The notes under the pieces: model-generated | What the model saw: only the letters and a program-made list of their open reading frames with translations | What the model was told of the DNA's origin: nothing | Databases searched by the model: none | In this document: in pieces, positions 5,577 to 31,333 of the stretch | Position numbering within the stretch: position 1 is the stretch's first letter | Layout of the letters: each line of letters starts with the position of its first letter | Translations under genes and position numbers: made by a program | Origin: Burkholderiaceae bacterium | GTDB lineage: Bacteria > Pseudomonadota > Gammaproteobacteria > Burkholderiales > Burkholderiaceae_C | Length of the DNA stretch: 38,785 nucleotides | Assembly (NCBI GenBank): GCA_016790515.1 | Contig: JAEUOY010000051.1 | Span: forward strand, 1 to 38,785 | Direction of reading: 5' to 3'

Positions 5577-6632
5577 TCAGCGCGCACGTGTCGCGGCCTG
5601 CGGGTCGGTGACGACCTTCTCGCCGGGCATCAGCCCCGACAGGATCTCGATGCGATCGCCGTCGACGCGGCCCAGCCTGACCTGCCGCAGCAGCGGCCGG
5701 CCCTGGGCGTCGAGCACGTACAGGCCGGTCATCTCGGCGCGGCGCACGACGGCCTGGCGCGGCACCGTCAGCGCGGGAGCGTCGGGCGCCGCGCCGTCGG
5801 CCACCGGCAGCCACAGGCGGGCGAACATGCCGGGCGCGACACCGGCCAGCCCGGCCGGCAGGTCCAGCCGCAGCGTCACGGTGTGGGTGGCCGCGTCGGC
5901 GGTGGGCAGCTGCTGCAGGCGCAGCGGGATGACCCATTGCTGCGCGGGCGGCAGGCCGGGCAGCTCGGCCTTCGGCAGCTGGCCGGCGGCCAGCCGCGAG
6001 GCGACCGACTGCGGCACCGCGGCGCTGATGCGCAGCGCCTGCGGGTCGTACAGCGTCAGCAGCGGCCGCCCGGGCATCGCCATGTCGCCCAGCGACACCG
6101 GCACCTCGGCGATCACGCCGGCATACGGCGCGCGCACGACGTGCAGCCCGGTCTGGGTCTTCGCGGCGCCGGCCTGCGCGAGCTGCGCCGTGACCTGGGC
6201 CTGCGTGGCCTTGAACTCGGACTCGGCGCGCTCCAGCGCCGCCTGGCTGATGTAGTTCTTCTCGAACAGCTGCTTCTGGCGCGCGTACTCCTGGCTGGCG
6301 ACGGCCAGGGCGGCACGCGCGGCCTGCACCTGGGCATCGCTCGCAGCAGCGTTCTGGTCGGCCGTGCGGGCGTCGATGCGCAGCAGCAGCTGGCCGGCCG
6401 CCACCCGGTCGCCGGCCTTGACCGCCAGCTCGACCACGGCGCCGCTGACCTGGGCGGCGATCGCCGTCTGGCGCACCGCCTCGACGACGCCGTCGAAGCC
6501 GGAGGCGCCGGCACTGGCCGACGCCAGCGCCGGTGCGGCCGCCAGCCCGGCGGCCCGCAGCGCGGCGGGCAGCGGCAGCAGCACCGCCACGGCCAGCGCG
6601 GTGGCAGCGATCGACAGCAGAGGCTTGGACAT
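5577..6632 (-). CDS. RND efflux periplasmic adaptor (HlyD/AcrA family)
   Basis: 351 residues; the membrane-fusion subunit bridging the RND pump and the TolC-family channel. A hydrophobic N-terminal signal (about 1-28) is followed by the biotinyl-lipoyl half-motifs 'GVVEAVRQTAIAAQVSGAVVEL' and 'VKAGDRVAAGQLLLRID'. A coiled-coil hairpin (about 75-150, Ala/Gln-rich) follows, then the second lipoyl half with 'APYAGVIAEVPVSLGDMAMPG' and beta-barrel domains. It is the first gene of the pump operon, ten bases from the RND start. ATG 6632 has AGAGAAAG upstream. Expression is probably controlled by the ArsR-family protein encoded divergently (see the operator at 6703-6724). Confidence 0.92.
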   Translation of the reverse strand: MSKPLLSIAATALAVAVLLPLPAALRAAGLAAAPALASASAGASGFDGVVEAVRQTAIAAQVSGAVVELAVKAGDRVAAGQLLLRIDARTADQNAAASDAQVQAARAALAVASQEYARQKQLFEKNYISQAALERAESEFKATQAQVTAQLAQAGAAKTQTGLHVVRAPYAGVIAEVPVSLGDMAMPGRPLLTLYDPQALRISAAVPQSVASRLAAGQLPKAELPGLPPAQQWVIPLRLQQLPTADAATHTVTLRLDLPAGLAGVAPGMFARLWLPVADGAAPDAPALTVPRQAVVRRAEMTGLYVLDAQGRPLLRQVRLGRVDGDRIEILSGLMPGEKVVTDPQAATRAR

Positions 6633-6645
6633 GCGCTTTCTCTTT

Positions 6646-6698
6646 CCGACAAGCGCCCCATCGGTATCGAAGGGGCTGGCATCGAGATGACTTGTCGG
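6646..6698 (-). repeat. 8-bp inverted repeat in the adaptor mRNA leader
   Basis: CCGACAAG at 6646-6653 and CTTGTCGG at 6691-6698 are exact inverted copies 37 bases apart. In the minus-strand transcript they could pair just upstream of the adaptor ribosome site. The right arm also overlaps the proposed -35 of the arsR promoter (6692-6697), so it may instead be part of a DNA-binding site. Confidence 0.4.
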
Positions 6699-6729
6699 TT
6701 ATTATTTGCGCACTTAGTTAAATAGTCAA
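6692..6729. promoter_or_regulatory. Face-to-face promoters and ArsR-type operator between the pump operon and arsR
   Basis: Minus strand: TTGACT (6729-6724), 17-base spacer, AATAAT (6706-6701), a good sigma-70 promoter for the efflux operon. Plus strand: TTGTCG (6692-6697), 17-base spacer, TAGTTA (6715-6720), a weaker promoter for the ArsR gene. An imperfect palindrome TATTT-N12-AAATA (6703-6724) sits over both and is the best candidate operator. AT-rich dyads of this kind between divergent genes are typical ArsR-family sites. No transcript evidence is available here. Confidence 0.6.
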
Positions 6730-6771
6730 GCGCGAAAGATCGCAAAGACGCAAGAAAGGCGGGGCCCAGGC

Positions 6772-7152
6772 ATGATGAGTGCTCATTCACAACCGGCATG
6801 TGCGAGCATGGAAGGCCTTCCCGACGAGGCGCTGGTGCAGGTGGCGTCGTATTTCCAGGCGCTGTCCGAGCCGACGCGGCTGCAGATCCTGAACCTGCTG
6901 CGCCAGCAGGAGCGCAGCGTCGGCGAGCTGGCGCAGCTGTGCGGCTACAGCTCGGCCAACGTCTCGCGCCACCTGGCGCTGCTGGCCCAGCATGGCCTGG
7001 TCGCGCGCGAGGCGCGCGGCAACAGCGCGATCTACCGCATCGCCGACCCGTCGGTCTATGCGCTGTGCGACCTGGTCTGCGGCAGCATCGCGCGCCAGCT
7101 CGACGCCGCGGCGCAGAAGCGCGCGGCCTTCGTCAATCCGCCAGGGGGTTGA
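6772..7152 (+). CDS. ArsR-family winged-helix transcriptional repressor
   Basis: 126 residues. The winged helix-turn-helix runs from 'FQALSEPTRLQILNLL' through 'SVGELAQLCGYSSANVSRHLALLAQHGLV' to the wing 'REARGNSAIYRI'. Four cysteines (10, 57, 99, 103) are present: C57 at the recognition-helix side and the C99/C103 pair in the last helix. The classical arsenic motif ELCVCDL is absent. The cysteines could bind a soft metal or act as a thiol/persulfide switch; the neighbouring rhodanese and AhpD-like genes favour the second slightly. It is divergent from the pump operon with overlapping promoters, so it probably represses both. The ATG at 6772 or 6775 can serve as start. Its 3' end overlaps the convergent HD-GYP gene by 20 bases. 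Confidence 0.88.
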   Translation: MMSAHSQPACASMEGLPDEALVQVASYFQALSEPTRLQILNLLRQQERSVGELAQLCGYSSANVSRHLALLAQHGLVAREARGNSAIYRIADPSVYALCDLVCGSIARQLDAAAQKRAAFVNPPGG

Positions 7153-8569
7153 CGGTCGTTGCAGGCTGCTGCTGCCCAAGCGCGCGCCTCAGCGCCTCGA
7201 AGCAATCCGCGTCGATCGCGGTGCCTACGTTCCCGGCCATCAGCGCCAGGGTCTTGTCGACCGGCACCGCCCCGCGGTAGGGCCGCTCGGCGGTGATCGC
7301 GTCGAAGATGTCGGCAGTGGTGATGATGCGCGTCTCGAGCCTGATCTGGCGCGCGTCGAGGCCACGCGGGTAACCGCCGCCGTCCAGGCGTTCGTGGTGC
7401 GCGCCGGCGATGCGCGCCAGCGCCTCGAAGGCGTCGATGCGGCCGAGGATGGCCTCGGTGTAGGCCGCGTGACGCTGCACCGCCTGCCATTCGGCGGCGT
7501 CGAGCCGGCCCGGCTTGTCGAGCACGGCATTGCTGACGCCGAGCTTGCCGATGTCGTGCAGCAGCGCGCCGCGCCCCAGCCAGCGGCGCTGCGCGGGCGC
7601 CAGCCCCATCGTCTCGGCGATCCGGTCGGTGTAGCGCGCGACGCGCTCGCTGTGGCCGCTGGTGTAGGGGCTCTTCGCATCGACCACCTGGCCGAACGCC
7701 GCGGCGATGTCGTCGAGGTAGTCGTCGTCGAGCGGCTGGGTCTGCAGCGCCGGCTCCATCGCGAACAGCTCGCGTTCGAGGCGGTCCGAGCCGAGCCGGT
7801 GCCAGAAGCCGGCATCGCGGGCGACGACGGCGAAGGCGTCGGCCAGCGCCGGGTCGAACCAGCGGCCGCGGCGGCGCTGGACCTCGTCGATCGCCGCCTG
7901 CGGCCCGCTGGCGGTGAAGAACACGTCGACCACCTGGGCCAGCAGCGCGACGCGCGAATACAGCGGGATCGCCTCGCGCGCCAGGCCGTAGGGCTTGCCA
8001 CCGCCGTCCCAGTGTTCGTCCAGGCCGCGGATGCCCGCGGCGACGGCCTCGGAGAAGCGCAGCTGGCGGGCGATCTCGGCGCCGCGGGTGCAGCGCGTCT
8101 CCATCAGCTCGCGGGCGATCTCGCCGCCATGGCGGAAGATGTTGAGCACCGCGCGCAGGCGTGCGGACAGGCCGGCCTTCGTCCCGGTGTGGCCGATCAC
8201 GAAGTTCAGCACCTGCGGCAGGCTGTCGCCGACGCCCTTGAAGTCGCGCTTGAACTGCAGGTCGTCGGTCAGGTAGAGCTGGCAGATCCGCGCCGCGTTG
8301 CTGCTGCAGCCCAGGTCCTTCAGCAGCACTGCGTAGTACAGCTCACGCAGTTGCAGCAGCGGCAGGCCGAGGGCGCGACCGAGCTGCTGGCCGATCCAGC
8401 AGGCGCGCACGCAGTGCCCGGCCGGCTGGCCCTCGGTCAGGTCCAGCGCGTGGCTGAGCGCGCCCAGCAGTTCGGCCAGGCCCAGGCCGGGCACCGCCGC
8501 CGGCGCACCGGCCGGCGGCGGCGCGGGAGCGGGCCGCAGCGTCGGAGGCAGGCAGAGAAGATCGTCCAT
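7133..8569 (-). CDS. Tandem-HD phosphodiesterase (HD-GYP type)
   Basis: 478 residues, no signal or membrane segment, so cytoplasmic. The C-terminal half is a complete HD-GYP domain: a SGHSERVARYT helix, the HDIGKLG pair (H338, D339), a third His after 'AVQRHAAYTEAI', 'AHHERLDGGGYPRGL' (GYP at 399-401) and 'DIFDAITAERPYR'. Such domains hydrolyse cyclic di-GMP. The N-terminal half looks like a second, degenerate HD unit: the metal-binding HD is replaced by K84-D85 (LLKDLG), while an 'EHWDGGGKPYGL' relic of the GYP loop remains. Proteins of this two-HD type are known; the dead copy could be a sensor or dimer domain. It converges on and overlaps the ArsR gene by 20 bases. An 18-bp perfect palindrome lies just upstream of its start. 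Confidence 0.88.
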   Translation of the reverse strand: MDDLLCLPPTLRPAPAPPPAGAPAAVPGLGLAELLGALSHALDLTEGQPAGHCVRACWIGQQLGRALGLPLLQLRELYYAVLLKDLGCSSNAARICQLYLTDDLQFKRDFKGVGDSLPQVLNFVIGHTGTKAGLSARLRAVLNIFRHGGEIARELMETRCTRGAEIARQLRFSEAVAAGIRGLDEHWDGGGKPYGLAREAIPLYSRVALLAQVVDVFFTASGPQAAIDEVQRRRGRWFDPALADAFAVVARDAGFWHRLGSDRLERELFAMEPALQTQPLDDDYLDDIAAAFGQVVDAKSPYTSGHSERVARYTDRIAETMGLAPAQRRWLGRGALLHDIGKLGVSNAVLDKPGRLDAAEWQAVQRHAAYTEAILGRIDAFEALARIAGAHHERLDGGGYPRGLDARQIRLETRIITTADIFDAITAERPYRGAVPVDKTLALMAGNVGTAIDADCFEALRRALGQQQPATTVNPLAD

Positions 8570-20946: not shown

Positions 20947-21537
20947 ATGAACCATGTCCCCGCCCCTGCTCCCAACTCGGTTGGCCGCCGGCTCGCCGCC
21001 GTCCTGCTGGCCCTGCTCGGCGCCGCACCCGCGCTGGCAGGACCGGGTTGCCCGGCGCTGCTGCAGCAGACCCAGCCGCGGCTGCAGGACGAGAAGCCGA
21101 TCGACCTCTGCGACCACGCCGGCAAGGTGCTGCTGGTGGTCAACACCGCCAGCTACTGCGGCTACACCCCGCAGTACAAATCGCTGGAAGCGCTGTACGC
21201 CCGCTACCGCGACCAGGGCCTGGTGGTGCTGGGCTTCCCGAGCAACGACTTCGCCCAGGAGCCCGGCAGCGACCAGGCGATCGCCGAGTTCTGCGAAAGC
21301 ACCTTCGGCGTCAAGTTCCCGATGTTCGCGAAGTCCAGCGTCGCGCCCGGCGCCGGGCGCAAGGTCAACCCGCTGTTCGTCGCGCTGGGCCAGCGCAGCG
21401 CCCAGGTGCCGCAGTGGAACTTCCACAAGTACCTGGTCTCCCGCAACGGCGAGACGGTGCTGAGCTACCGGTCGGCGGTCGACCCCAAAGACCCTGCATT
21501 TCTGAAGGACTTGGAGAAACTACTGAAGGCAAAGTGA
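20947..21537 (+). CDS. Periplasmic glutathione peroxidase-like protein
   Basis: 196 residues. A signal peptide (about 1-31, RRLAAVLLALLGAAPALA) directs it to the periplasm. The thioredoxin-fold body has the peroxidatic cysteine C71 in NTASYCGYTPQY, 'LGFPSNDFAQEPGSD', the resolving-type cysteine in 'FCESTFGVKFPMF' and the catalytic Trp/Asn pair in WNFHKYLV. The catalytic Gln of the classical FPCNQF motif is replaced by Asp (FPSNDF), a variation I believe occurs in a bacterial subgroup. It probably reduces lipid or organic peroxides using thioredoxin-like rather than glutathione donors. The start at ATG 20947 gives the best signal peptide. It is followed by the operon leader at 21538-21870. Confidence 0.88.
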   Translation: MNHVPAPAPNSVGRRLAAVLLALLGAAPALAGPGCPALLQQTQPRLQDEKPIDLCDHAGKVLLVVNTASYCGYTPQYKSLEALYARYRDQGLVVLGFPSNDFAQEPGSDQAIAEFCESTFGVKFPMFAKSSVAPGAGRKVNPLFVALGQRSAQVPQWNFHKYLVSRNGETVLSYRSAVDPKDPAFLKDLEKLLKAK

Positions 21538-21550
21538 GACTGAACGGTCA

Positions 21551-21574
21551 CAATTGAACTCATCGGTTCAATTG
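21551..21574. repeat. AT-rich inverted repeat (9-bp arms)
   Basis: CAATTGAAC (21551-21559), TCATCG, GTTCAATTG (21566-21574): perfect arms, 13 bases after the glutathione peroxidase stop. There is no T-run, and the stem is AT-rich, so it fits an operator better than a terminator. Confidence 0.6.
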
Positions 21575-21624: not shown

Positions 21625-21652
21625 GGAACCTTTCCGTCGGGCTGGGCTCTAT
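21625..21652 (+). promoter_or_regulatory. Candidate ECF (sigma-E-type) promoter for the lipid-modification operon
   Basis: GGAACCT (21625-21631), a 16-base spacer and TCTAT (21648-21652) match the GGAACTT-N15/16-TCTNA pattern of RpoE-like sigma factors. It would give a leader of about 210 bases. A TGATCT at 21607-21612 resembles the -35 of the Rhodobacter ChrR-controlled sigma factor, but no matching -10 follows. Short motifs like this can occur by chance. Confidence 0.4.
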
Positions 21653-21870
21653 CGCGTCGTCAGGGTGCCGAGAACCTTGCCAGTGGCGGCTGAACGGGAT
21701 GCAGGGCCCAAGCGCCGACCACTGACCGACACCAGTTTCGTGCCGTGCAGCCTTTCGGGTTTCCGAACTGAAATCCTGGGGCGATTCTCCTCCTCCTCCC
21801 TCCCTCCCTCGTTGGCTCCAGGGCGCTGCACGGCCCCTTCATCTCCCTCCCGCCGCGCCGGGGTTTCGCC

Positions 21871-23196
21871 GTGAACGCGCCGCTCCGGCGCGTTGCGGTG
21901 GTCGGCTCGGGCATTTCGGGGCTCGCCGCCGCCTGGGCCCTGGCCGACGAGGCCGAGGTCGTGCTCTACGAGGCCGACGGCCGTTTCGGCGGCCACGCCC
22001 ACACCGTCGACCTGACGCTGGACGGCGTCAGCCATGGCGTGGACACCGGCTTCCTGGTGTTCAACCACGCGACCTACCCGAACCTGGTGCGGCTGTTCGG
22101 CGAGCTCGGCGTCGACACCGCGGCGTCGGACATGTCGTTCTCGGTCCAGGTGCCCGATGCCGGGCTCGAATGGAGCGGCAGCAACCTCGACAGCGTGTTC
22201 GCGCAGCGCGCCAACCTGGTCAGGCCGCGCTTCCTGGGCATGCTGCGCGACCTGCTGCGCTTCAACCGCCTGGCCACCGCGATCGCCGAGCGTGGCGACG
22301 AGAGCTCGCTGCAGCAGCCGATCGCCGACTTCCTGGCCGAACACCGGTTCGCCGGCAGCTTCCGCGACTGGTACCTGCTGCCGATGCTGGGCTGCATCTG
22401 GAGCTGCCCGACCGACCAGATGCTGCGCTTCCCGGTGGCGACGATGATCCGCTTCTGCCACAACCACGGCCTGATCCGCATCGTCGACCGGCCGCAGTGG
22501 TACACGGTGCGCGGCGGCTCGCGCCACTATGTGCGGCGCATGCTGGCGCGCATCTCCGACGCGCGGCTGAACACGCCGGTGCGCGCGGTGCGCCGCGTGC
22601 CGCCGGATTCGGCCAGCGCCGGGGTCTGGGTCGACACCGACCACGGCAGCGCCCATTTCGACGAGGTGGTGCTGGCCGGTCACAGCGACCAGAGCCTGGC
22701 ACTGCTGGGCAGGCAGGCCAGCGCCGGCGAGCGTGCGGTGCTCGGCGCGATCCGCTACCAGCTCAACCGCGCACTGCTGCACACCGACGCCAGCCTGCTG
22801 CCGCGGCGCAGCAAGGCCTGGGCGGCCTGGAACTACGTGCGCTCGCCGCTGCCTGCGCAGGAGCAGTCGGCCGTCTGCCTGCACTACCTGATCAACCGGC
22901 TGCAGCCGCTGCCCTGGCAGCAGCCGGTGCTGGTGTCGCTGAACCCGACGCGCGAGCCGGCGGCGAACACCGTGCACGGCGAGTTCGACTACGCCCATCC
23001 GGTGTTCGACCTCGCGGCGATCGCCGCACAGGCCCGCCTCGGCGAGATCCAGGGCCGCAGCCATGTCTGGTTCGCCGGCGCCTGGACCCGCTACGGCTTC
23101 CACGAGGACGGCCTGCGCTCCGGCCTGGCCGTCGCCGACGCGCTGCGCGCAGGCTGGGCTCGAGCCACCACCGCGCCCGCGCGCCTCGCGGCCTGA
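21871..23196 (+). CDS. FAD-dependent amine-oxidase-like oxidoreductase
   Basis: 441 residues. The N-terminal Rossmann motif VAVVGSGISGLAAAWAL (about 7-23) with 'VVLYEADGRFGGHAHT' is the FAD-binding signature of the amine oxidase/phytoene-desaturase superfamily. 'VDTGFLVFNHATYPNL' and a C-terminal 'WFAGAWTRYGFHEDGLRSGLAVADAL' (second FAD contact) complete it. The start is GTG 21871; no ATG is available and no strong ribosome site is seen. It is the first gene of an eight-gene operon and overlaps the DUF1365 gene by one base (TGATG). Proteins of this kind always seem to travel with DUF1365 and CFA-synthase homologues. In the operon it may oxidise (desaturate) a lipid-bound acyl chain; that function is inferred. 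Confidence 0.85.
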   Translation: MNAPLRRVAVVGSGISGLAAAWALADEAEVVLYEADGRFGGHAHTVDLTLDGVSHGVDTGFLVFNHATYPNLVRLFGELGVDTAASDMSFSVQVPDAGLEWSGSNLDSVFAQRANLVRPRFLGMLRDLLRFNRLATAIAERGDESSLQQPIADFLAEHRFAGSFRDWYLLPMLGCIWSCPTDQMLRFPVATMIRFCHNHGLIRIVDRPQWYTVRGGSRHYVRRMLARISDARLNTPVRAVRRVPPDSASAGVWVDTDHGSAHFDEVVLAGHSDQSLALLGRQASAGERAVLGAIRYQLNRALLHTDASLLPRRSKAWAAWNYVRSPLPAQEQSAVCLHYLINRLQPLPWQQPVLVSLNPTREPAANTVHGEFDYAHPVFDLAAIAAQARLGEIQGRSHVWFAGAWTRYGFHEDGLRSGLAVADALRAGWARATTAPARLAA

Positions 23197-24020
23197 TGGC
23201 CATGCCGCCGACCAGCGCCACCGCCGCCCGGGCCCAGCTGGGCATCGGCCGGGTCCGCCACCAGCGCTTGCGGCCGACGATGCACGGCTTCGACTACCCG
23301 ACCTGGTTCCTGCTGCTGCCGCTGCGCAGCCTGCGCGATCGGCCCGATCCGATGCTGAATCGCAACCGCTTCGGCTGGGCCAGCTTCCACGATGCCGACC
23401 ACGGCGACGGCTGCGCCGACTGCCTGGCCTGGCTCGACGAGCAGCTGGCCGCCGCCGGCATCGCCGACGCCGGCGGCGAGATCTGGCTGCACACCTACCC
23501 GCGGCTGCTGGGCTATGCGTTCAAGCCGGTCAGCTTCTGGTACTGCCACCGGACCGACGGTTCGCTGGCGGCGATCGTCGCCGAGGTCAACAACACCTTC
23601 GGCGCTCGCCACTGCTACCTGCTGGCCGGGCCGGACCTGGCCTTCGGCCGCGAGCTGGTCGCCACCAAGCAGTTCCACGTCTCGCCGTTCTGCCGGATCG
23701 AAGGCCGCTACCGCTTCCGCTTCATGCGCACCGGGCTGGCCTCGTCCGGCGGCGCCGGCCGCACCGTGGCCCGCATCGAGCACGACGACGCCCGCGGCCC
23801 GCTGCTGCTGACCAGCGTCAGCGGCGAGCTGGCGCCGCTGACCGCCGCGCGGCTGCACCAGGCGCTGTGGCGCATGCCGCTGCTGACGCTGGGCGTGATC
23901 GCCCGCATCCACTGGCAGGCGCTGCGGCTGTGGCTCAAGCGCGTGCCGTTCTTCGGCAGCGACGGCCGCGCCGCACGGGCGGCCACGCCGCTCGCCCATC
24001 CTCCTCGAGGCCTCAGGTAG
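23196..24020 (+). CDS. DUF1365 domain protein
   Basis: 274 residues. The family landmarks are 'HGFDYPTWFLLLPL' near the N-terminus, 'HTYPRLLGYAFKPVSFWYCHR' in the middle, 'AEVNNTFGARHCYLL' and 'FHVSPFCRIEGRYRFRF'. DUF1365 has no established biochemical function; members are conserved with the FAD oxidoreductase and CFA-synthase-like enzyme and are implicated in lipid modification under oxidative stress. ATG 23196 overlaps the previous stop; a second ATG six bases on is possible. The product has no clear signal peptide. The next gene starts six bases after its stop. Confidence 0.88.
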   Translation: MAMPPTSATAARAQLGIGRVRHQRLRPTMHGFDYPTWFLLLPLRSLRDRPDPMLNRNRFGWASFHDADHGDGCADCLAWLDEQLAAAGIADAGGEIWLHTYPRLLGYAFKPVSFWYCHRTDGSLAAIVAEVNNTFGARHCYLLAGPDLAFGRELVATKQFHVSPFCRIEGRYRFRFMRTGLASSGGAGRTVARIEHDDARGPLLLTSVSGELAPLTAARLHQALWRMPLLTLGVIARIHWQALRLWLKRVPFFGSDGRAARAATPLAHPPRGLR

Positions 24021-24026
24021 TCCCCG

Positions 24027-25253
24027 ATGCACTCTGCCACCACCCTCACCACCCTGGACCTGCCGCCGTCGGCGCCGCCGGCCGCACGCGCGGTGTTTGC
24101 GATCCTGCGCCGGCTGCAGGTCGGCACGCTCGACGTTCAGCTGCCCGACGGCAGCCAGGCCCGCTTCGGCCACGGCGCGCCGAACGAGCCGCATGCCGCG
24201 GTGCGGCTGCACAACTGGAAGGTCTGCGGCGCCGCGCTGCGCTCGGGCGACATCGGCTTCGCCGAGACCTTCATCGCCGGCGACTGGGCGGCCAACGACC
24301 TGGTCGCGCTGCTGCAGGTGTTCATCGCCAACCGCGAGGCGATGGAATCGGTGGTCTACGGCACCTGGTGGGGCAACCTGCTGAACCGCGTGCGCCACTT
24401 GTTCAACCGCAACTCGCGCGCCGGCAGCAAGCGCAACATCCACGCCCATTACGACCTGGGCAATGCGTTCTACCGGCTGTGGCTGGACGAGACCATGACC
24501 TATTCGAGCGCCTGGTTCGACGGCGACCTGCAGCAGGGCACCGCCGATGCCCAGCGCGCGAAGATGCGCCGCGCGCTCGCCGAATGCCGGGTGCAGCGCG
24601 GCGACCGGGTGCTCGAGATCGGCTGCGGCTGGGGCGGGCTGGCCGAGTGCGCGGTGCGCGACTTCGGCGCCCGGGTCACCGGCGTCACGCTGTCGGCCGA
24701 GCAGCTGGACTTCGGCCAGCAGCGGCTGGCCCGCGCCGGCCTGGCCGACCAGGCGACGCTGCGCTTCCAGGACTACCGCGACATCGCCGACGGCCCGTTC
24801 GATGCGATCGTCTCGATCGAGATGTTCGAGGCGGTCGGCCGCGAGTACTGGGCCGGTTTTTTCGAGACGCTGCGCAATCAGCTGAAGCCCGGCGGGCGCG
24901 CCTGCATCCAGTCGATCACGATCGACGACCGGCTGTTCGACCGCTACCTGGCCGGCACCGACTTCATCCAGCAGTACATCTTCCCCGGCGGCCTGCTGCC
25001 CAGCCCGGGCGCGTTCCGCGCCGAGGCGGCCAGGGCCGGGCTGGAGGTCGAGCGCGAGCTGGCCTTCGGCCTCGACTATGCCGAGACGCTGCGCCGCTGG
25101 CGGCAGGACTTCCTGCACCAGGACACGCAGGTGCGCGGCCTCGGCTTCGACACCCGCTTCATGCGCACCTGGGAGTTCTACCTCGCCTACTGCGAGGCGG
25201 CGTTCGCCAGCGGCAACACCGACGTCATGCAGTTCACGCTGCGCCGGCCCTGA
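24027..25253 (+). CDS. CFA-synthase-family lipid methyltransferase with altered active site
   Basis: 408 residues. An N-terminal lipid-binding domain (about 1-130) precedes a class I SAM methyltransferase fold with 'AHYDLGNAFYRLWLDETMTYSS', motif I VLEIGCGWGGLAE and 'SIEMFEAVGREYW'. It aligns along its whole length with E. coli cyclopropane fatty-acid synthase as I remember that sequence. However, of the residues that bind the catalytic bicarbonate there, C139 is S161 here, H266 is Q295 and Y317 is R359; only E239 (E268) and I268 (I297) remain. The bicarbonate removes the last proton in ring closure, so this enzyme may make a methyl, methylene or methyl-alkene lipid instead of a cyclopropane. 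Soluble, membrane-associated; third gene of the operon. Confidence 0.9.
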   Translation: MHSATTLTTLDLPPSAPPAARAVFAILRRLQVGTLDVQLPDGSQARFGHGAPNEPHAAVRLHNWKVCGAALRSGDIGFAETFIAGDWAANDLVALLQVFIANREAMESVVYGTWWGNLLNRVRHLFNRNSRAGSKRNIHAHYDLGNAFYRLWLDETMTYSSAWFDGDLQQGTADAQRAKMRRALAECRVQRGDRVLEIGCGWGGLAECAVRDFGARVTGVTLSAEQLDFGQQRLARAGLADQATLRFQDYRDIADGPFDAIVSIEMFEAVGREYWAGFFETLRNQLKPGGRACIQSITIDDRLFDRYLAGTDFIQQYIFPGGLLPSPGAFRAEAARAGLEVERELAFGLDYAETLRRWRQDFLHQDTQVRGLGFDTRFMRTWEFYLAYCEAAFASGNTDVMQFTLRRP

Positions 25254-25266
25254 AGGGGGGTTGACC

Positions 25267-25818
25267 TTGAACCGGCGTTCCTGCCTCTTGCTCGCGCTGG
25301 CAACGGCCGGCGGCTGGCGGAGCGCCGCCGCGCAGGCGTCGCTGCCCGCGCCGCCGCCCGAACTCGGCACCGAACTGCCCGGCGCCCGATGGCGTGGCGC
25401 CGGCACGCTGCGCTTCATGGGCCTGTATGTCTACGACGCCCAGCTGTGGAGTCCCGAGGCCGTCGGCGGCGACTTCAGCGCCCAGCCGCTGGCGCTGACG
25501 CTGGTCTATGCCCGACGCCTGGTCGGCGAACAGATCGCCGCCCGCTCGATCAAGGAGATGAACCGCATCGGCCCGATCAGCGACGCCCAGGCGGCGCGCT
25601 GGCAGCAGGCGCTGATCCCGCTGTTCCCCGACGTCGGGCCGGGCGACCGCCTGACCGGCGTCCACCTGCCGGGCCGTTCGGCGCGCTTCCACTTCAACGG
25701 CCAGTTCCGCGGCGAGGTGGCCGACGCGGAGTTCGCGCGGCTGTTCTTCGGCATCTGGCTGTCGCCGCGCACCTCGGAACCACGCCTGCGCGAGCAGTTG
25801 CTGGGAGCGCGCGGGTGA
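25267..25818 (+). CDS. Chalcone-isomerase-like periplasmic protein
   Basis: 183 residues. The start is TTG 25267, chosen because AAGGGGGG lies six bases upstream; a TTG at 25261 is the alternative. An N-terminal signal with an Arg pair (NRRSCLLLALATAGG) suggests export, possibly by Tat. The mature part has 'GAGTLRFMGLYVYDAQLW', 'ALTLVYARRLVGEQIAARSIKEM' and 'FNGQFRGEVADAEFARLFFGIWL', the pattern of the bacterial chalcone-isomerase-like family (Chalcone_3). These proteins share the fatty-acid-binding fold of plant chalcone isomerase, so a role in binding or processing acyl chains is plausible. It overlaps the MFS gene by four bases. Confidence 0.82.
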   Translation: MNRRSCLLLALATAGGWRSAAAQASLPAPPPELGTELPGARWRGAGTLRFMGLYVYDAQLWSPEAVGGDFSAQPLALTLVYARRLVGEQIAARSIKEMNRIGPISDAQAARWQQALIPLFPDVGPGDRLTGVHLPGRSARFHFNGQFRGEVADAEFARLFFGIWLSPRTSEPRLREQLLGARG

Positions 25819-27119
25819 GTCCGGACACGCTGACCAGGCCGCTCGCCGCGGCGTCCGCCGCGCCCGCGTTCAGCCTGCGCGACGGGCTGCGCTACGGCGC
25901 GCTCGGCGCCCCGCTGGCCTTCGCAGCGCTGCCGCTGTACGTGCTGCTGCCCAACCATTACGCAGCGCAACTGGGCGTGCCGCTGGCCGGCCTGGGCGCG
26001 GTGCTGCTCGGCACCCGGCTGCTCGACGCGCTGGTCGACCCCTGGCTCGGCCGGGTCGTCGACCGCGGTCTGTCCCGGCCGCGCGCGCAGGTGCTGTGGG
26101 CCGCCGCCGGCGCGGCGCTGCTGATGGCCGCCGGCTTCGTCGCACTGTTCTTCCCGCCGGCCGCCAGCGCAGAGTCGCTGCTCGCCTGGTGCGCGCTGAT
26201 GCTGGTGATCACCTGCCTGGGCTACAGCGCGCTGGGCGTGCTGCACCAGGCCTGGGGCGCCCGGCTGGGCGGCGGCGCCGCGGCGCAGGCGCGCATCGTC
26301 GGCTGGCGCGAGGGCCTGTCGCTGGCCGGCGTGCTCGCCGCCAGCGTGCTGCCGGCGCTGGCCGGCATCCCGGCGATGGTGGCCACCGCGGCGGCGCTGC
26401 TGGCGCTGGCGCTGTGGGCGCTGAGCGCGGCACCGTATCGCGCCGCGGGGCCGCGGCGGCTGACCGCCGCGCCCGACCCGCAAGGCGCCTGGGCGCGGCC
26501 CTGGCGCGTCGGTGCGTTCCGCGCGCTGATGGCGGTCTTCGTGCTCAACGGCGTGGCCAGCGCGGTGCCGGCGACGCTGGTGATCTTCTTCATCCAGGAC
26601 CGGCTGCAGGCGCCGGCGGGGCAGCCGCTGTTCCTCGGCAGCTATTTCGCCGCCGCGGCGCTGTCGATGCCGCTGTGGGTGCGCGCGGTGGCCCGCTACG
26701 GCCTGGTCCGCTGCTGGCTGGCCGGCATGGCGCTGGCGATCGCCGCCTTCGTCTGGGCGGCCCGCCTGGGGGCCGGCGACGGCGCCGCCTTCGCCGCGAT
26801 CTGCCTGATCACCGGCATTGCGCTGGGCGCCGACCTGGCGGTGCCCGGCGCGCTGCTGACCGGCGTGATCCAGCGCGCCGGCCACGCGCTGCAACACGAA
26901 GGCAGCTACTTCGGCTGGTGGACCTGCGCCAACAAGCTCAACCTCGCGCTCGCCGCCGGTCTGGCGCTGCCGGCGCTGCAGGCCCTCGGCTACACCCCCG
27001 GCGCCCGCGACGAGGCGGCGCTCTCGTCACTCGCGCTGGTCTATGCCGCGCTGCCCTGCGTGCTGAAGGCCGCCGCCGCCGCGCTGCTGTGGCACCACCG
27101 ACCCCAGCTGGAACGATGA
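25815..27119 (+). CDS. MFS transporter (GPH sugar-cation-symporter-like)
   Basis: 434 residues with about twelve membrane spans. The start is GTG 25815 in a GTGA overlap with the previous stop, with GGGAG upstream. Features include 'LPLYVLLPNHYAAQLGVPLAGLGAVLLGTRLLDALVDPWLGRVVDR', the loop 2-3 motif of the glycoside-pentoside-hexuronide type MFS proteins, and 'GWWTCANKLNLALAAGLALPAL' near the C-terminus. Relatives in ECF/ChrR-type stress operons are annotated as MFS or sugar transporters, although the substrate is unproven and could be a lipid precursor. It overlaps the DUF3833 start by four bases (ATGA). Confidence 0.87.
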   Translation: MSPDTLTRPLAAASAAPAFSLRDGLRYGALGAPLAFAALPLYVLLPNHYAAQLGVPLAGLGAVLLGTRLLDALVDPWLGRVVDRGLSRPRAQVLWAAAGAALLMAAGFVALFFPPAASAESLLAWCALMLVITCLGYSALGVLHQAWGARLGGGAAAQARIVGWREGLSLAGVLAASVLPALAGIPAMVATAAALLALALWALSAAPYRAAGPRRLTAAPDPQGAWARPWRVGAFRALMAVFVLNGVASAVPATLVIFFIQDRLQAPAGQPLFLGSYFAAAALSMPLWVRAVARYGLVRCWLAGMALAIAAFVWAARLGAGDGAAFAAICLITGIALGADLAVPGALLTGVIQRAGHALQHEGSYFGWWTCANKLNLALAAGLALPALQALGYTPGARDEAALSSLALVYAALPCVLKAAAAALLWHHRPQLER

Positions 27120-27685
27120 TGACCCTCACCACCTCCCATCGCCGCCGGCTCGGCGCCCTGGCCTTCGCGCTGGGCCTGGCGGCCCCGCTGCTGCTGACCG
27201 GATGCGCCAGCCCGACGCCGGCCGACTACGCCGCGCAGACCCCGACGCTGGACCTGCGGCAATACTTCGACGGCAAGCTGCTGGCCCACGGCATCGTCAC
27301 CGACCGCGGCGGCAAGGTGCTGCAGCGCTTCACCGTGCGCATGACCGGCCGCTGGCAGGGCGACACCGGCACGCTCGACGAACGCTTCACCTACGCCGAC
27401 GGCCGCCAGGAGACCCGCGTCTGGACGCTGACGCGCGGCGCCGACGGCCGCTACACCGGCCGCGCCGCCGATGTGCTCGGCGAGGCCCAGGGCCAGGCCG
27501 CCGGCAACGCACTGAACTGGCGCTACACGCTGCTGCTGCCGGTCGACGGCCGCACCTGGGAGGTGCAGTTCGACGACTGGATGTTCCTGGTCGACGACCA
27601 GGTGATGCTGAACCGCGCGGTGATGAGCAAGTTCGGCATCCGGCTCGGCGAGGTGCTGCTGTCGTTCCAGCGCCTGCCTGCCTGA
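27116..27685 (+). CDS. DUF3833 lipoprotein
   Basis: 189 residues. The N-terminal signal ends with the lipobox LLTGC, so it should be lipid-anchored in the periplasm or outer membrane. 'LDLRQYFDGKLLAHGIVTDRGGKVLQRFTV' and 'YADGRQETRVWTL' followed by 'DDWMFLVDDQVMLNRAVMSKFGIRLGEVLLSF' are the DUF3833 landmarks. The fold may be lipocalin-like, so lipid or hydrophobic ligand binding is possible. The start at 27116 overlaps the MFS stop in an ATGA junction; ATG 27119 is an alternative. It ends seven bases before the SDR gene. Confidence 0.87.
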   Translation: MMTLTTSHRRRLGALAFALGLAAPLLLTGCASPTPADYAAQTPTLDLRQYFDGKLLAHGIVTDRGGKVLQRFTVRMTGRWQGDTGTLDERFTYADGRQETRVWTLTRGADGRYTGRAADVLGEAQGQAAGNALNWRYTLLLPVDGRTWEVQFDDWMFLVDDQVMLNRAVMSKFGIRLGEVLLSFQRLPA

Positions 27686-27692
27686 GACACCG

Positions 27693-28481
27693 ATGATGGC
27701 CCTGAACCCCCGCATCACCGACTGGCAAGGCCGGCATGTCTGGCTGGTGGGTGCGTCCACCGGCATCGGCCGCGCCACCGCGGCGCTGCTGCACCGCCGC
27801 GGCGCGCGGGTCACGGTGTCGGCGCGCGGCGCCGCGGCACTGGAGAGCTTCGTCGCCGCCCACCCCGGCGCCCAGGCGCTGGCGCTGGACGCCACCGACG
27901 CCGCCGCGGTGCGCGGCGCCGCCCAGGGCCTGCTGCAGCGCAATGGCCGCATCGACCTGGCGATGTACTGCGCCGGCCATTACCACGCGATGAGCGCCAC
28001 TGCGTTCGACCTGGCCGACGCGGTGCGCCATCAGCAGATCAACTACGTCGGCGCGCTGAACCTGCTCGACGCGGTGCTGCCGGCGCTGCTGCGCCAGGCC
28101 GCCGCCGGCCAGCCGGCGCACCTGAGCCTGGTCGCCAGCGTCGCCGGCTACCGCGGCCTGCCCAACGCGCTGGCCTACGGCCCGACCAAGGCCGCGCTGA
28201 TCAACCTGGCCGAGGTGCTGTACCTCGACCTGCATGCCCGCGGCGCCGGCGTGTCGCTGGTCAACCCCGGGTTCGTCGAGACGCCGCTGACGGCGCAGAA
28301 CGCGTTCCACATGCCCGCGCTGATCAGCCCCGAGGCGGCGGCCGAGGCGATCGTCGCCGGCTGGGAGAAGGGCGAGTTCGAGATCCACTTCCCGAAGCGC
28401 TTCACGCGCATGCTCAAGGCGCTGCGGCCGTTGCCCGACGGGCTGTATTTCGGCGCCGTGCGCCGCGCGGTCCGTGCCTGA
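27693..28481 (+). CDS. Short-chain dehydrogenase/reductase (SDR)
   Basis: 262 residues. The NAD(P)-binding motif GASTGIG is at 20-26, the catalytic Ser lies in 'LSLVASVAGY', and the catalytic YxxxK is in 'YGPTKAALINL'. This is a complete classical SDR. The C-terminus carries 'FEIHFPKRFTRMLKALRPLP', a basic-hydrophobic tail seen in SDRs of membrane-lipid gene sets. It probably oxidises or reduces a hydroxy/keto group on a lipid-linked substrate; the exact substrate is unknown. It overlaps the NTF2-like gene by eight bases. ATG 27693 or 27696 (MM) can start. Confidence 0.92.
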   Translation: MMALNPRITDWQGRHVWLVGASTGIGRATAALLHRRGARVTVSARGAAALESFVAAHPGAQALALDATDAAAVRGAAQGLLQRNGRIDLAMYCAGHYHAMSATAFDLADAVRHQQINYVGALNLLDAVLPALLRQAAAGQPAHLSLVASVAGYRGLPNALAYGPTKAALINLAEVLYLDLHARGAGVSLVNPGFVETPLTAQNAFHMPALISPEAAAEAIVAGWEKGEFEIHFPKRFTRMLKALRPLPDGLYFGAVRRAVRA

Positions 28482-28917
28482 GCCCGCGCCGCGGCACGGC
28501 GATCCGCGGGTGCAGGCGGTCATCGCGCTGTTCGAGGGCCTGACACCCGCCGACCTGCCGGCGCTGCGCGGCGTCTATGCGGACGACGCAAGCTTCAAGG
28601 ACCCGTTCAACGAAGTGCAGGGTCTGGCGGCGATCGCTGCCATCTTCGAGCACATGTTCCGGCAGCTGGACGACCCGCGCTTCACGGTGCGGGAACTGGT
28701 CGCCGAAGGCGACGCGCTGTTCCTGACCTGGGACTTCGACTTCCGCCGCCGCGGCGCAGGGGCGATGCGCATCCACGGCGCCAGCCATCTGCGCTTCGAC
28801 GCCGGCGGCCGGGTGGCGATGCACCGCGACTACTGGGACGCGGCCGAGGAGCTCTACGAGAAGCTGCCGCTGGTCGGCGCGCTGATGCGCTGGCTGAAAC
28901 GGCAGGCCGCCGGCTGA
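28474..28917 (+). CDS. NTF2/SnoaL-like small protein
   Basis: 147 residues, start GTG 28474 inside the 3' end of the SDR gene. The cone-shaped NTF2 fold is suggested by 'VIALFEGLTPADLPALRGVYADDASFKDPFNEVQGLAAIAAIFEHMF', then 'FTVRELVAEGDALFLTWDFDF' and 'GASHLRFDAGGRVAMHRDYWD'. Members bind or isomerise small hydrophobic molecules. No signal peptide. It is the last gene of the operon, ending 16 bases before a convergent gene; I saw no clear hairpin between them. Substrate unknown; an isomerase or hydratase role acting after the SDR is a guess. Confidence 0.85.
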   Translation: MPEPAPRHGDPRVQAVIALFEGLTPADLPALRGVYADDASFKDPFNEVQGLAAIAAIFEHMFRQLDDPRFTVRELVAEGDALFLTWDFDFRRRGAGAMRIHGASHLRFDAGGRVAMHRDYWDAAEELYEKLPLVGALMRWLKRQAAG

Positions 28918-30694: not shown

Positions 30695-31333
30695 TCAAAC
30701 CGCGGCCGCCAGGGCCGCCACGCGCTCGCGCACCAGCGCTTCCAGGGCGTCGAACGGCACCGGCTTGTGGAAGACCCGCACCCCAGCTGGCAGGCCGCCG
30801 CGGCGCGCGATCTCGGCTTCGGACAGCGCGGTGACGACGACGATCTCCATCGCGTCGAACGCCGCCTCGGCGCCGCGCAGCGTGGCGATCATCCTGAAGC
30901 CGTCCATGCCGGGCATGTTCAGGTCGGTCACCAGCAGATCGGGGCGGTGCCGGCCCATGCGCAGCAGGGCATCGAAGCCGTCGCAGGCCGGCGTGAGCTC
31001 GATCGGCAGGTGCCAGCCGGCGATGACCAGCGTGAACAGGCGCAGCAGGTCGGGCTCGTCTTCGACGACCATCATCTTCAGTCGCCCGTCGGACGAGCGA
31101 TCCGGCGCCTCGGCGCCGGCGATGCGCAGGGGCTCGCCCGACAGCGCGGCACGGCGCTCGCCGATCAGCCGCTCGACCGCTGCGCGCGAGATGCGTCGAT
31201 GACCTCCGGCCGTCTTCCAGGCCGGCAGCACACCCGCTTCGACCCACAGCTGGACCGTGCGCAGCGCAACCCCCAGCCGTTCGGCCGCCTCGCGCGTCGA
31301 CAGCACATCGTCATTGGTGGCGCTCTTACGCAT
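30695..31333 (-). CDS. Excisionase-type HTH fused to a response-regulator receiver domain
   Basis: 212 residues. The N-terminus (about 8-58) is a MerR/excisionase-like helix-turn-helix: 'STREAAERLGVALRTVQLWVEAGVLPAWKTAGGHRRI'. After a 25-residue linker comes a receiver domain: acidic E91-D92-E93, phospho-acceptor D137 in VTDLNMPGMDG, the VVVTALSE Thr and the Lys of FHKPVPF. All receiver residues are intact. The order is unusual, because response regulators normally carry the receiver first and the DNA-binding domain last. No histidine kinase is adjacent. It may be an orphan regulator of nearby genes; the palindrome at 31507-31520 lies 173 bases upstream of its start. Confidence 0.88.
   Translation of the reverse strand: MRKSATNDDVLSTREAAERLGVALRTVQLWVEAGVLPAWKTAGGHRRISRAAVERLIGERRAALSGEPLRIAGAEAPDRSSDGRLKMMVVEDEPDLLRLFTLVIAGWHLPIELTPACDGFDALLRMGRHRPDLLVTDLNMPGMDGFRMIATLRGAEAAFDAMEIVVVTALSEAEIARRGGLPAGVRVFHKPVPFDALEALVRERVAALAAAV

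Follow-up and report, generated by a model that had tools for sequence, protein, structure and literature searches.

A candidate small-RNA gene in front of a furan-lipid-type operon in a Burkholderiaceae bacterium

What does a tightly packed set of lipid genes make, and what controls it, when the regulator expected beside it is missing? The question is raised by a 38,785-nucleotide stretch of a Burkholderiaceae bacterium (contig JAEUOY010000051.1, assembly GCA_016790515.1; hereafter the window), in which eight genes on the plus strand occupy positions 21871-28917. An earlier note on this DNA had read them as a lipid-modification stress operon without its sigma factor. Together in the operon is the core trio of the known furan fatty acid (ufa) clusters: a flavin adenine dinucleotide (FAD) protein (UfaD), a DUF1365 protein (UfaO), and a cyclopropane fatty acid (CFA) synthase-like methyltransferase (UfaM). 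The earlier note did not mention a structured RNA gene directly 5' of the operon, which stood out when the leaders were compared, since its sequence is much more conserved than that on either side. We think it probable, with considerable room for doubt, that the locus joins a ufa-type lipid operon to a free-standing small-RNA gene placed in front of it, the RNA having an RpoE-type promoter, acting by pairing with mRNAs, and being read through into the operon.

Structure, strand and novelty of the RNA

The RNA occupies 21742-21845 on the plus strand and consists of three stems, P1 (21742-21751/21825-21834), P2 (21754-21758/21763-21767), and P3 (21775-21782/21815-21822), followed by a terminator-like end. 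In a first alignment of 14 sequences (the window and 13 other loci; 135 columns), which was not fitted to the structure, 93.8% of the cells are paired and covariation scores 0.418 compared with 0.239 ± 0.019 in shuffled alignments, with four of the five measures beating all 500 shuffles; RNAalifold, given this alignment alone, recovers the two principal stems and a portion of the third. A second alignment, of 71 sequences, was made to follow the structure and so has an advantage in the scoring. Here 93.2% of the cells pair, 21 of the 24 pairs show two-sided changes, covariation reaches 0.567 against 0.274 ± 0.009 when shuffled and at most 0.161 when slid, and all five measures beat every shuffle. 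The 71-sequence, promoter, and MerR tables ignore kinship, and their p-values are no more than indicative. Because the 71 sequences contain 132 G-U cells and 10 A-C cells when read on the plus strand, this strand is the RNA; the same count rules out a CsrB-like reading of the minus strand, with its GGA-rich complement.

Stem P3 closes a CU-rich loop of 32 nt (21783-21814, plus strand) with the core UUCUCCUCCUCCUCCCUCCCUCCCUCGUU. The loop is well kept while its closing stem covaries, and its sequence is very closely conserved over the family, with shorter variants also present; it is a candidate site for pairing with mRNA. We take CCUCCUCCC loops and a co-transcribed DUF1127 gene to be characteristic of the Cuckoo/CcsR RNAs, and CCUCCUCCC is present in the loop of the window RNA.

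Searching Rfam with 601 nt of the window gave no match at an E-value of 10. A scan of 20 other loci (E 5) returned five sub-threshold matches, none of them over the RNA and RF02278 not among them; a sub-threshold Thr_leader match on the opposite strand of locus L196 shares 7 nt with the margin of the RNA. Among the papers listed from the open-licence literature, none holds relevant small-RNA work on the carrier genera. There CCUCCUCCC occurs in 28 papers, and of the 20 listed just two, on rhizobial small RNAs, seem related from their titles; a longer string of the loop, written as DNA, occurs in two papers, both unrelated by title. Measured against that literature and Rfam 15, we regard the RNA as strongly suggestive of a new, apparently undescribed small-RNA family. 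Rfam family RF02278, the 'toxic small RNAs' (ncS27 and the related S17 of Bordetella), likewise comprises Burkholderiales small RNAs in which CU-rich stretches are left unpaired and a terminator is present. However, its members have two simple hairpins and, in the available descriptions, three to five copies in Burkholderia genomes, whereas the window RNA is a closed three-way junction with one copy per genome and no match to RF02278.

Distribution, promoter and proposed action of the RNA

Covariance-model searches were run with Infernal's stricter filters, which lose weak matches. The first model found a single copy in 28 of 60 genomes, corresponding to 28 of the 36 members of the window's family and none of the 24 from other families, and one copy each was found in 179 of 250 genomes of the family. 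A second model, built from the 71 sequences and run over 300 genomes of the order, recovered eight of the nine listed family members and two weak matches among the rest (28.3 and 26.1 bits). Among the carriers named in the 71 records that match the pattern exactly are Rubrivivax, Roseateles, Pelomonas, Hydrogenophaga, Polaromonas, Variovorax, Aquabacterium, Caldimonas, Ideonella, and Aquincola.

The position of the RNA relative to the operon varies. We considered 19 query genes within 900 nt of each RNA (other genes may intervene), and in 40 of 71 genomes the nearest one assigned downstream is the FAD gene, which shares the strand of the RNA, with 9-133 nt between the end of the RNA match and the FAD match. 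In 26 others it is a converging gene (CorA or GST), 24 of these lying within 350 nt, and in the remaining five it is another gene or none. DUF3833 served as the marker of the operon and is present in 35 of the 60 genomes, the window genome included. Seven genomes that are 94-100% complete (G010, G015, G023, G024, G032, G034, and G035) carry the RNA and give no DUF3833 match. Their RNA loci are free of FAD, DUF1365, and CFA-like genes, the rest of these genomes not having been searched for the three; G006 (88% complete) was excluded from this list because its contig ends inside the operon. Four more (G003, G014, G019, and G030) have DUF3833 elsewhere in the genome and an RNA locus without a FAD match. 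Because the RNA is also found where the operon is not adjacent, it is a gene of its own that is often but not always placed before the operon. On these genomic grounds it is a free-standing small-RNA gene, situated in the window within the 5' leader of the operon.

A candidate promoter of the ECF (extracytoplasmic function) sigma-E-like kind, GGAAC-N18-TCTAT, matches by pattern at 21625-21652 on the plus strand and may serve the RNA and probably the operon too. GGAAC occurs within the 161 nt before the first stem in 54 of the 71 homologues, compared with 11.7 in shuffles (maximum 19), and GGAAC-N15-18-TC[ACT] lies upstream of 32 of the 71, compared with a shuffled mean of 1.9 (maximum 6). We take the GGAAC...TC arrangement to resemble RpoE-type promoters, and the window genome encodes an RpoE (TIGR02939) scoring 264.9 bits against a cut-off of 236.15.

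The mechanism that we propose begins with an envelope-stress ECF sigma factor, most likely of RpoE type, that would transcribe the RNA from GGAAC-N18-TC. The transcript would fold into a three-way junction, its long outer stem and the Us that follow acting as a terminator, and the CU-rich loop would mask purine-rich ribosome-binding sites of target mRNAs. The operon would probably be transcribed by read-through, so that the RNA doubles as the operon's attenuated leader. The sequence itself shows the genes and the fold, strand, conservation, and place of the RNA; use of the promoter, the sigma factor, the pairing, the read-through, and the lipid product are presumed. Read-through is presumably the simplest source of operon mRNA, since the last RNA stem ends at 21834 and the FAD gene starts at 21871, and the 36 nt between them leave almost no room for a separate promoter. 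We did not use a weakened U-tract as a mark of read-through: the longest U run is 3.5 in the 40 linked loci and 4.4 in the 31 others, a comparison that ignores kinship, and runs of 5-6 are seen in several of the linked copies. If the promoter is of RpoE type and the RNA represses by masking start sites, both as proposed, it would resemble the sigma-E-dependent small RNAs of enterobacteria (MicA and RybB), a likeness of regulation and not of demonstrated sequence or structural kinship. If it is induced by stress, it would be their betaproteobacterial counterpart, and its place before the operon would link a general repressor with the protection of membranes from oxidants. As to the mode of action, the available text of PMC5688073 and PMC11722255 describes CU-rich stretches in ncS27 of Burkholderia that are predicted to cover ribosome-binding sites, and direct repression of one target by S17 of Bordetella in a reporter assay. 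Because these stretches are predicted or supported to act at such sites, pairing of the loop with ribosome-binding sites is, by analogy, the most likely mode.

Several observations weigh against this combination of lipid operon and trans-acting RNA. In the 14-sequence alignment, the number of pair types is equalled by 118 of the 500 shuffles, and the U-tract of the window copy (CCCCUUCAUC) is weak. Seven genomes of the family (G005, G007, G013, G022, G025, G029, and G033) have DUF3833 and no RNA that we could find, so the RNA is not needed for the operon. An upstream GGAAC-TC site is missing from 39 of the 71 RNAs and GGAAC itself from 17, and the 501 nt before the RpoE match gave no GGAAC-TC site. 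GGAAC is rarer where a MerR gene lies alongside (3 of 8 loci versus 51 of 63), so that the promoter cannot be general, and GTACA/TGTAC is found upstream more often where GGAAC is missing (11 of 17 versus 9 of 54), both counts ignoring kinship; the pattern hints at two modes of control and an exchange of regulators. For the operon, the equivalence of the trio to UfaM, UfaD, and UfaO is one of family and position, and the comparison covered distant loci. Finally, a search of 21 genomes with one strict pattern for complements of the loop before ATG yielded 12 matches versus three for the reversed control, with zero to two per genome of the window's genus, and one of the 12 was the RNA gene's own complement; the search is uninformative and supports no target.

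The lack of an established pairing target leaves room for the loop to bind a protein, for instance of the CsrA, Hfq, ProQ, or cold-shock type, rather than mRNA. The loop is indeed conserved to a degree that pairing with a variety of targets hardly seems to call for; however, the predicted sites of ncS27 and the single-target assay with S17 (PMC5688073 and PMC11722255, in the available text) place comparable stretches at ribosome-binding sites, and we consider protein binding unlikely, if a serious candidate. Less probable still is that the RNA is a cis-acting leader of the FAD operon, a riboswitch or attenuator that does not act in trans. The same-strand position directly before the FAD gene in the 40 linked genomes and the terminator-like stem would suit such a leader, but the converging CorA or GST genes at 26 loci and the persistence of the RNA in the seven near-complete genomes lacking a detectable DUF3833 gene, with no operon gene at the locus, argue against it. 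A riboswitch acting solely in cis was rejected in view of the convergent neighbours.

The lipid operon and its likely product

The genes in front of which the RNA lies follow one another with gaps of at most 7 nt and overlaps at four of the seven junctions; the earlier note rightly described them as packed, with gaps of 13 bases or less, and refined start positions tighten that figure. All eight window proteins score above the Pfam cut-offs of their families. The FAD-dependent oxidoreductase gene (Amino_oxidase/NAD_binding_8; 21871-23196), UfaD-like by family and position, overlaps by 1 nt with the DUF1365 gene (23196-24020; PF07103, E 2e-76), similarly UfaO-like by family and position. After 6 nt comes the CFA-synthase-like methyltransferase gene (CMAS; 24027-25253) and, after a further 7 nt, a chalcone-isomerase-like gene (Chalcone_3; 25261-25818) with a TTG start, whose product has a signal-peptide-like N-terminus and is presumably exported. 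An MFS_2 transporter gene of GPH type (25815-27119) overlaps with it by 4 nt, as does in turn the gene for a putative DUF3833 lipoprotein with a lipobox-like LTGC (27116-27685). A short-chain dehydrogenase/reductase (SDR; adh_short) gene follows after 7 nt (27693-28481), and an NTF2-like (SnoaL_2) gene (28474-28917) overlaps with it by 8 nt.

We compared the loci of the other 34 DUF3833 genomes by tblastn with the window proteins. All eight genes are present in the same order in 27 of them, and the eight-gene packing is therefore not a matter of chance. Five loci (L065, L067, L068, L074, and L079) end at contig ends, two of which (L065 and L067) also have no NTF2-like gene after the SDR gene; in L094 the Chalcone_3 and NTF2 genes are undetectable, and in L092 DUF3833 alone matched. 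In L061 about 1.9 kb (6261-8155) separates the CFA-like from the chalcone-isomerase-like gene.

By its gene content the operon is an ordinary, full-set relative of the known ufa clusters, of the protective-lipid type. In Rhodobacter sphaeroides and Rhodopseudomonas palustris, UfaM (a CFA-like methylase), UfaD (an FAD protein), and UfaO (a DUF1365 protein) lead to methylated furan fatty acids, and the available text of the same study describes RSP1087-1089 as dispensable for these fatty acids (PMC7380195). By analogy of family, the CFA-like enzyme would methylate a cis double bond in the acyl chains of membrane phospholipids, the FAD enzyme would carry out a desaturation step, and the DUF1365 protein would add O2 and close the furan ring, with accessory roles for the transporter, the DUF3833 lipoprotein, and the chalcone-isomerase-like, SDR, and NTF2-like proteins; both the chemistry and the product are what we infer from the families. 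The R. sphaeroides genes (RSP1091-1087) share with the window the FAD, DUF1365, and CFA-like methyltransferase genes. RSP1089 (402 aa) and RSP1088 (186 aa), as given in the available text, are about the size of the window's MFS and DUF3833 proteins, a likeness of size alone. The window differs in having the CFA-like gene inside the operon, in the added Chalcone_3 and NTF2-like genes, and in that no ECF11/ChrR pair was found.

Could the operon instead make cyclopropane fatty acids, its CFA-like gene being an ordinary CFA synthase? The protein matches the CMAS family (E 1e-82) and has 5z9o, 7qos, and 6bqc as relatives, but it falls far under the curated CFA equivalog cut-offs (275.7 versus 600 and 233.1 versus 400). 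Alignment with these three shows Ser in place of Cys and Gln in place of His, at positions that we take to belong to the carbonate site (Cys, Glu, His, and Tyr; C139, E239, H266, and Y317 in Escherichia coli). Both replacements are invariant in all 32 operon CFA-like proteins, the window's included, and the Glu and Tyr are kept; the presumed set of carbonate-site residues of cyclopropane synthases is thus incomplete, none of the 32 having the Cys or the His. The replacements point away from plain cyclopropane synthesis, which is no proof of UfaM activity; an ordinary CFA synthase is improbable.

The earlier note had also proposed that the SDR, NTF2-like, and exported chalcone-isomerase-like members suggest extra steps that may end in a new modified lipid. 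A DUF1365 search over 249 genomes of the phylum gave 73 with a match, 65 of them outside the order, and from these 65 we chose 20 loci, mostly the top ones by E-value. The order NTF2-SDR-FAD-DUF1365-CFA is present in seven of the 20, and a Chalcone_3-like gene in three, MFS in five, and DUF3833 in six. At 12 of these loci the FAD-DUF1365 pair has a gene like ChrR or an ECF11 sigma factor no more than about 5 kb away (27-54% identity by tblastn at E 1e-4), and a MerR gene is near three. The SDR, NTF2-like, and chalcone-isomerase-like genes are, judging from these loci, recurrent companions of ufa-type genes in other proteobacteria. Since the same genes accompany ufa-type genes elsewhere, their presence alone is no sign of a new lipid, and what had seemed extra genes are common companions. 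With this operon the known range of furan-lipid clusters comes to include a clade whose regulation is unlike the ChrR model.

Regulators and neighbouring elements

In describing the operon as lacking its sigma factor, the earlier note suggested searching the genome for an ECF sigma-ChrR pair. That search gave no ChrR (TIGR02451) match in the window genome, whose assembly (5.0 Mb in 176 contigs) is 82% complete and leaves absence unproven; to this extent the description holds for a ChrR-type pair. ChrR is above the cut-off in none of the 35 DUF3833 genomes and in 2 of the 60 genomes overall (2 of the 25 without DUF3833), with weaker matches in 18 more. The two positive genomes are G010 and G023 (L032 and L031), neither with a DUF3833 match. 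Of the loci of the 34 relatives, 29 extend as far as the FAD gene, and none of the 34 has a gene for ChrR or its sigma factor near the operon. The ECF11-type site TGATC[CA]-N15-19-CGTA, a consensus from the available text of PMC4336711, is absent between the glutathione peroxidase and FAD genes of the window. The reading as a membrane-lipid operon related to ufa and ECF-ChrR regulon operons stands, but on this survey the ECF-ChrR link from other proteobacteria does not carry over to this clade. Control by an ECF11/ChrR pair hidden in the missing part of the assembly would fit its incompleteness and the 12 of 20 distant operons with such a gene nearby, but is highly improbable given the 0 of 35 DUF3833 genomes with ChrR above the cut-off, compared with 2 of 25 without DUF3833, and the lack of the ECF11-type site in the leader.

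The regulator genes seen near the relatives' operons are of other kinds, CarH/LitR-like MerR in 11 of the 34 loci and TetR in two. Two of three MerR proteins examined have B12-binding domains above the Pfam cut-off, and in the third the domain is sub-threshold. A MerR search of the window genome gave just one match, of 264 nt and at the level of the helix-turn-helix (HTH), on a different contig, and none beside the operon with B12 domains; no TetR was noticed among the window's open reading frames (ORFs), no search of the window genome having been aimed at TetR. The LitR-type MerR regulator has its known counterpart in Pseudomonas, where the pmlR1/pplR1 ufaM clusters (class II LitR with short LOV proteins) unite SDR, FAD, ufaM, and hypothetical genes in a single region that light induces. 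In Pseudomonas mendocina, according to PMC9758184, a region with phrB, SDR, FAD protein, and ufaM genes is light-induced; its promoter is repressed in vitro by PmlR2, a class II LitR protein, and a LOV protein activated by blue light lifts this repression. In contrast, the window genome has only the short HTH-level match, and in the window the RNA gene takes the upstream position. Sites containing GACAA/TTGTC lie between the FAD gene and divergent CarH/LitR-like MerR genes in four relatives (TTGTCTAGGACAAA in L061, L088, and L093; ACTAGGACAAG in L081) and are unlike the Pseudomonas TGTACA operator. In L061 an ORF that appears by eye to be lipocalin-like lies upstream of the MerR gene.

Taken together, we tentatively propose, at somewhat less than even confidence, that conserved small RNAs with a three-way junction and one copy per genome make up a new family, characteristic of a single bacterial family (Rubrivivax, Roseateles, Hydrogenophaga, Polaromonas, Variovorax, Aquabacterium, and their relatives). 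They would be under envelope-stress control in some lineages and light-type MerR control in others, and would couple global mRNA repression to furan-lipid synthesis by terminator read-through into the lipid operon. The RNA matters more than the operon, being strongly structured, conserved, without an Rfam match, and present in most sampled genomes of a large environmental family; its carriers include named, cultured strains, which makes its function directly testable.

Upstream of the RNA, the window has a glutathione peroxidase gene with a hydrophobic N-terminus (20992-21537, plus strand; an in-frame coding segment with an approximate start), a recurrent neighbour that lies 5' of the RNA on the same strand at 36 of the 71 loci. 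Comparably, a periplasmic glutathione peroxidase and a cfa operon belong, according to PMC4336711, to the oxidative-stress RpoE2-ChrR regulon of Shewanella oneidensis (pgpD, phrB, and cfa); in contrast to Shewanella, the promoter TGATCC...CGTAAT was not found in the window leader and no ChrR was found. Just after the peroxidase gene is a palindrome, CAATTGAAC-N6-GTTCAATTG (21551-21574), which is a candidate operator. With up to two mismatches, TTGAAC-N6-GTTCAA occurs in the leaders of the window and nine of 29 relatives, in eight of these nine at 16-37 nt past the peroxidase stop codon, and it is possibly a TetR operator. At the G003 locus (L089) a similar palindrome lies about 40 nt before the FAD match, beside a divergent TetR gene. 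About 1.8 kb past the operon, an ORF on the minus strand (30695-31333) combines a MerR/excisionase-like HTH start with what appears by eye to be a response-regulator receiver domain, and it is retained in many loci of the same genus.

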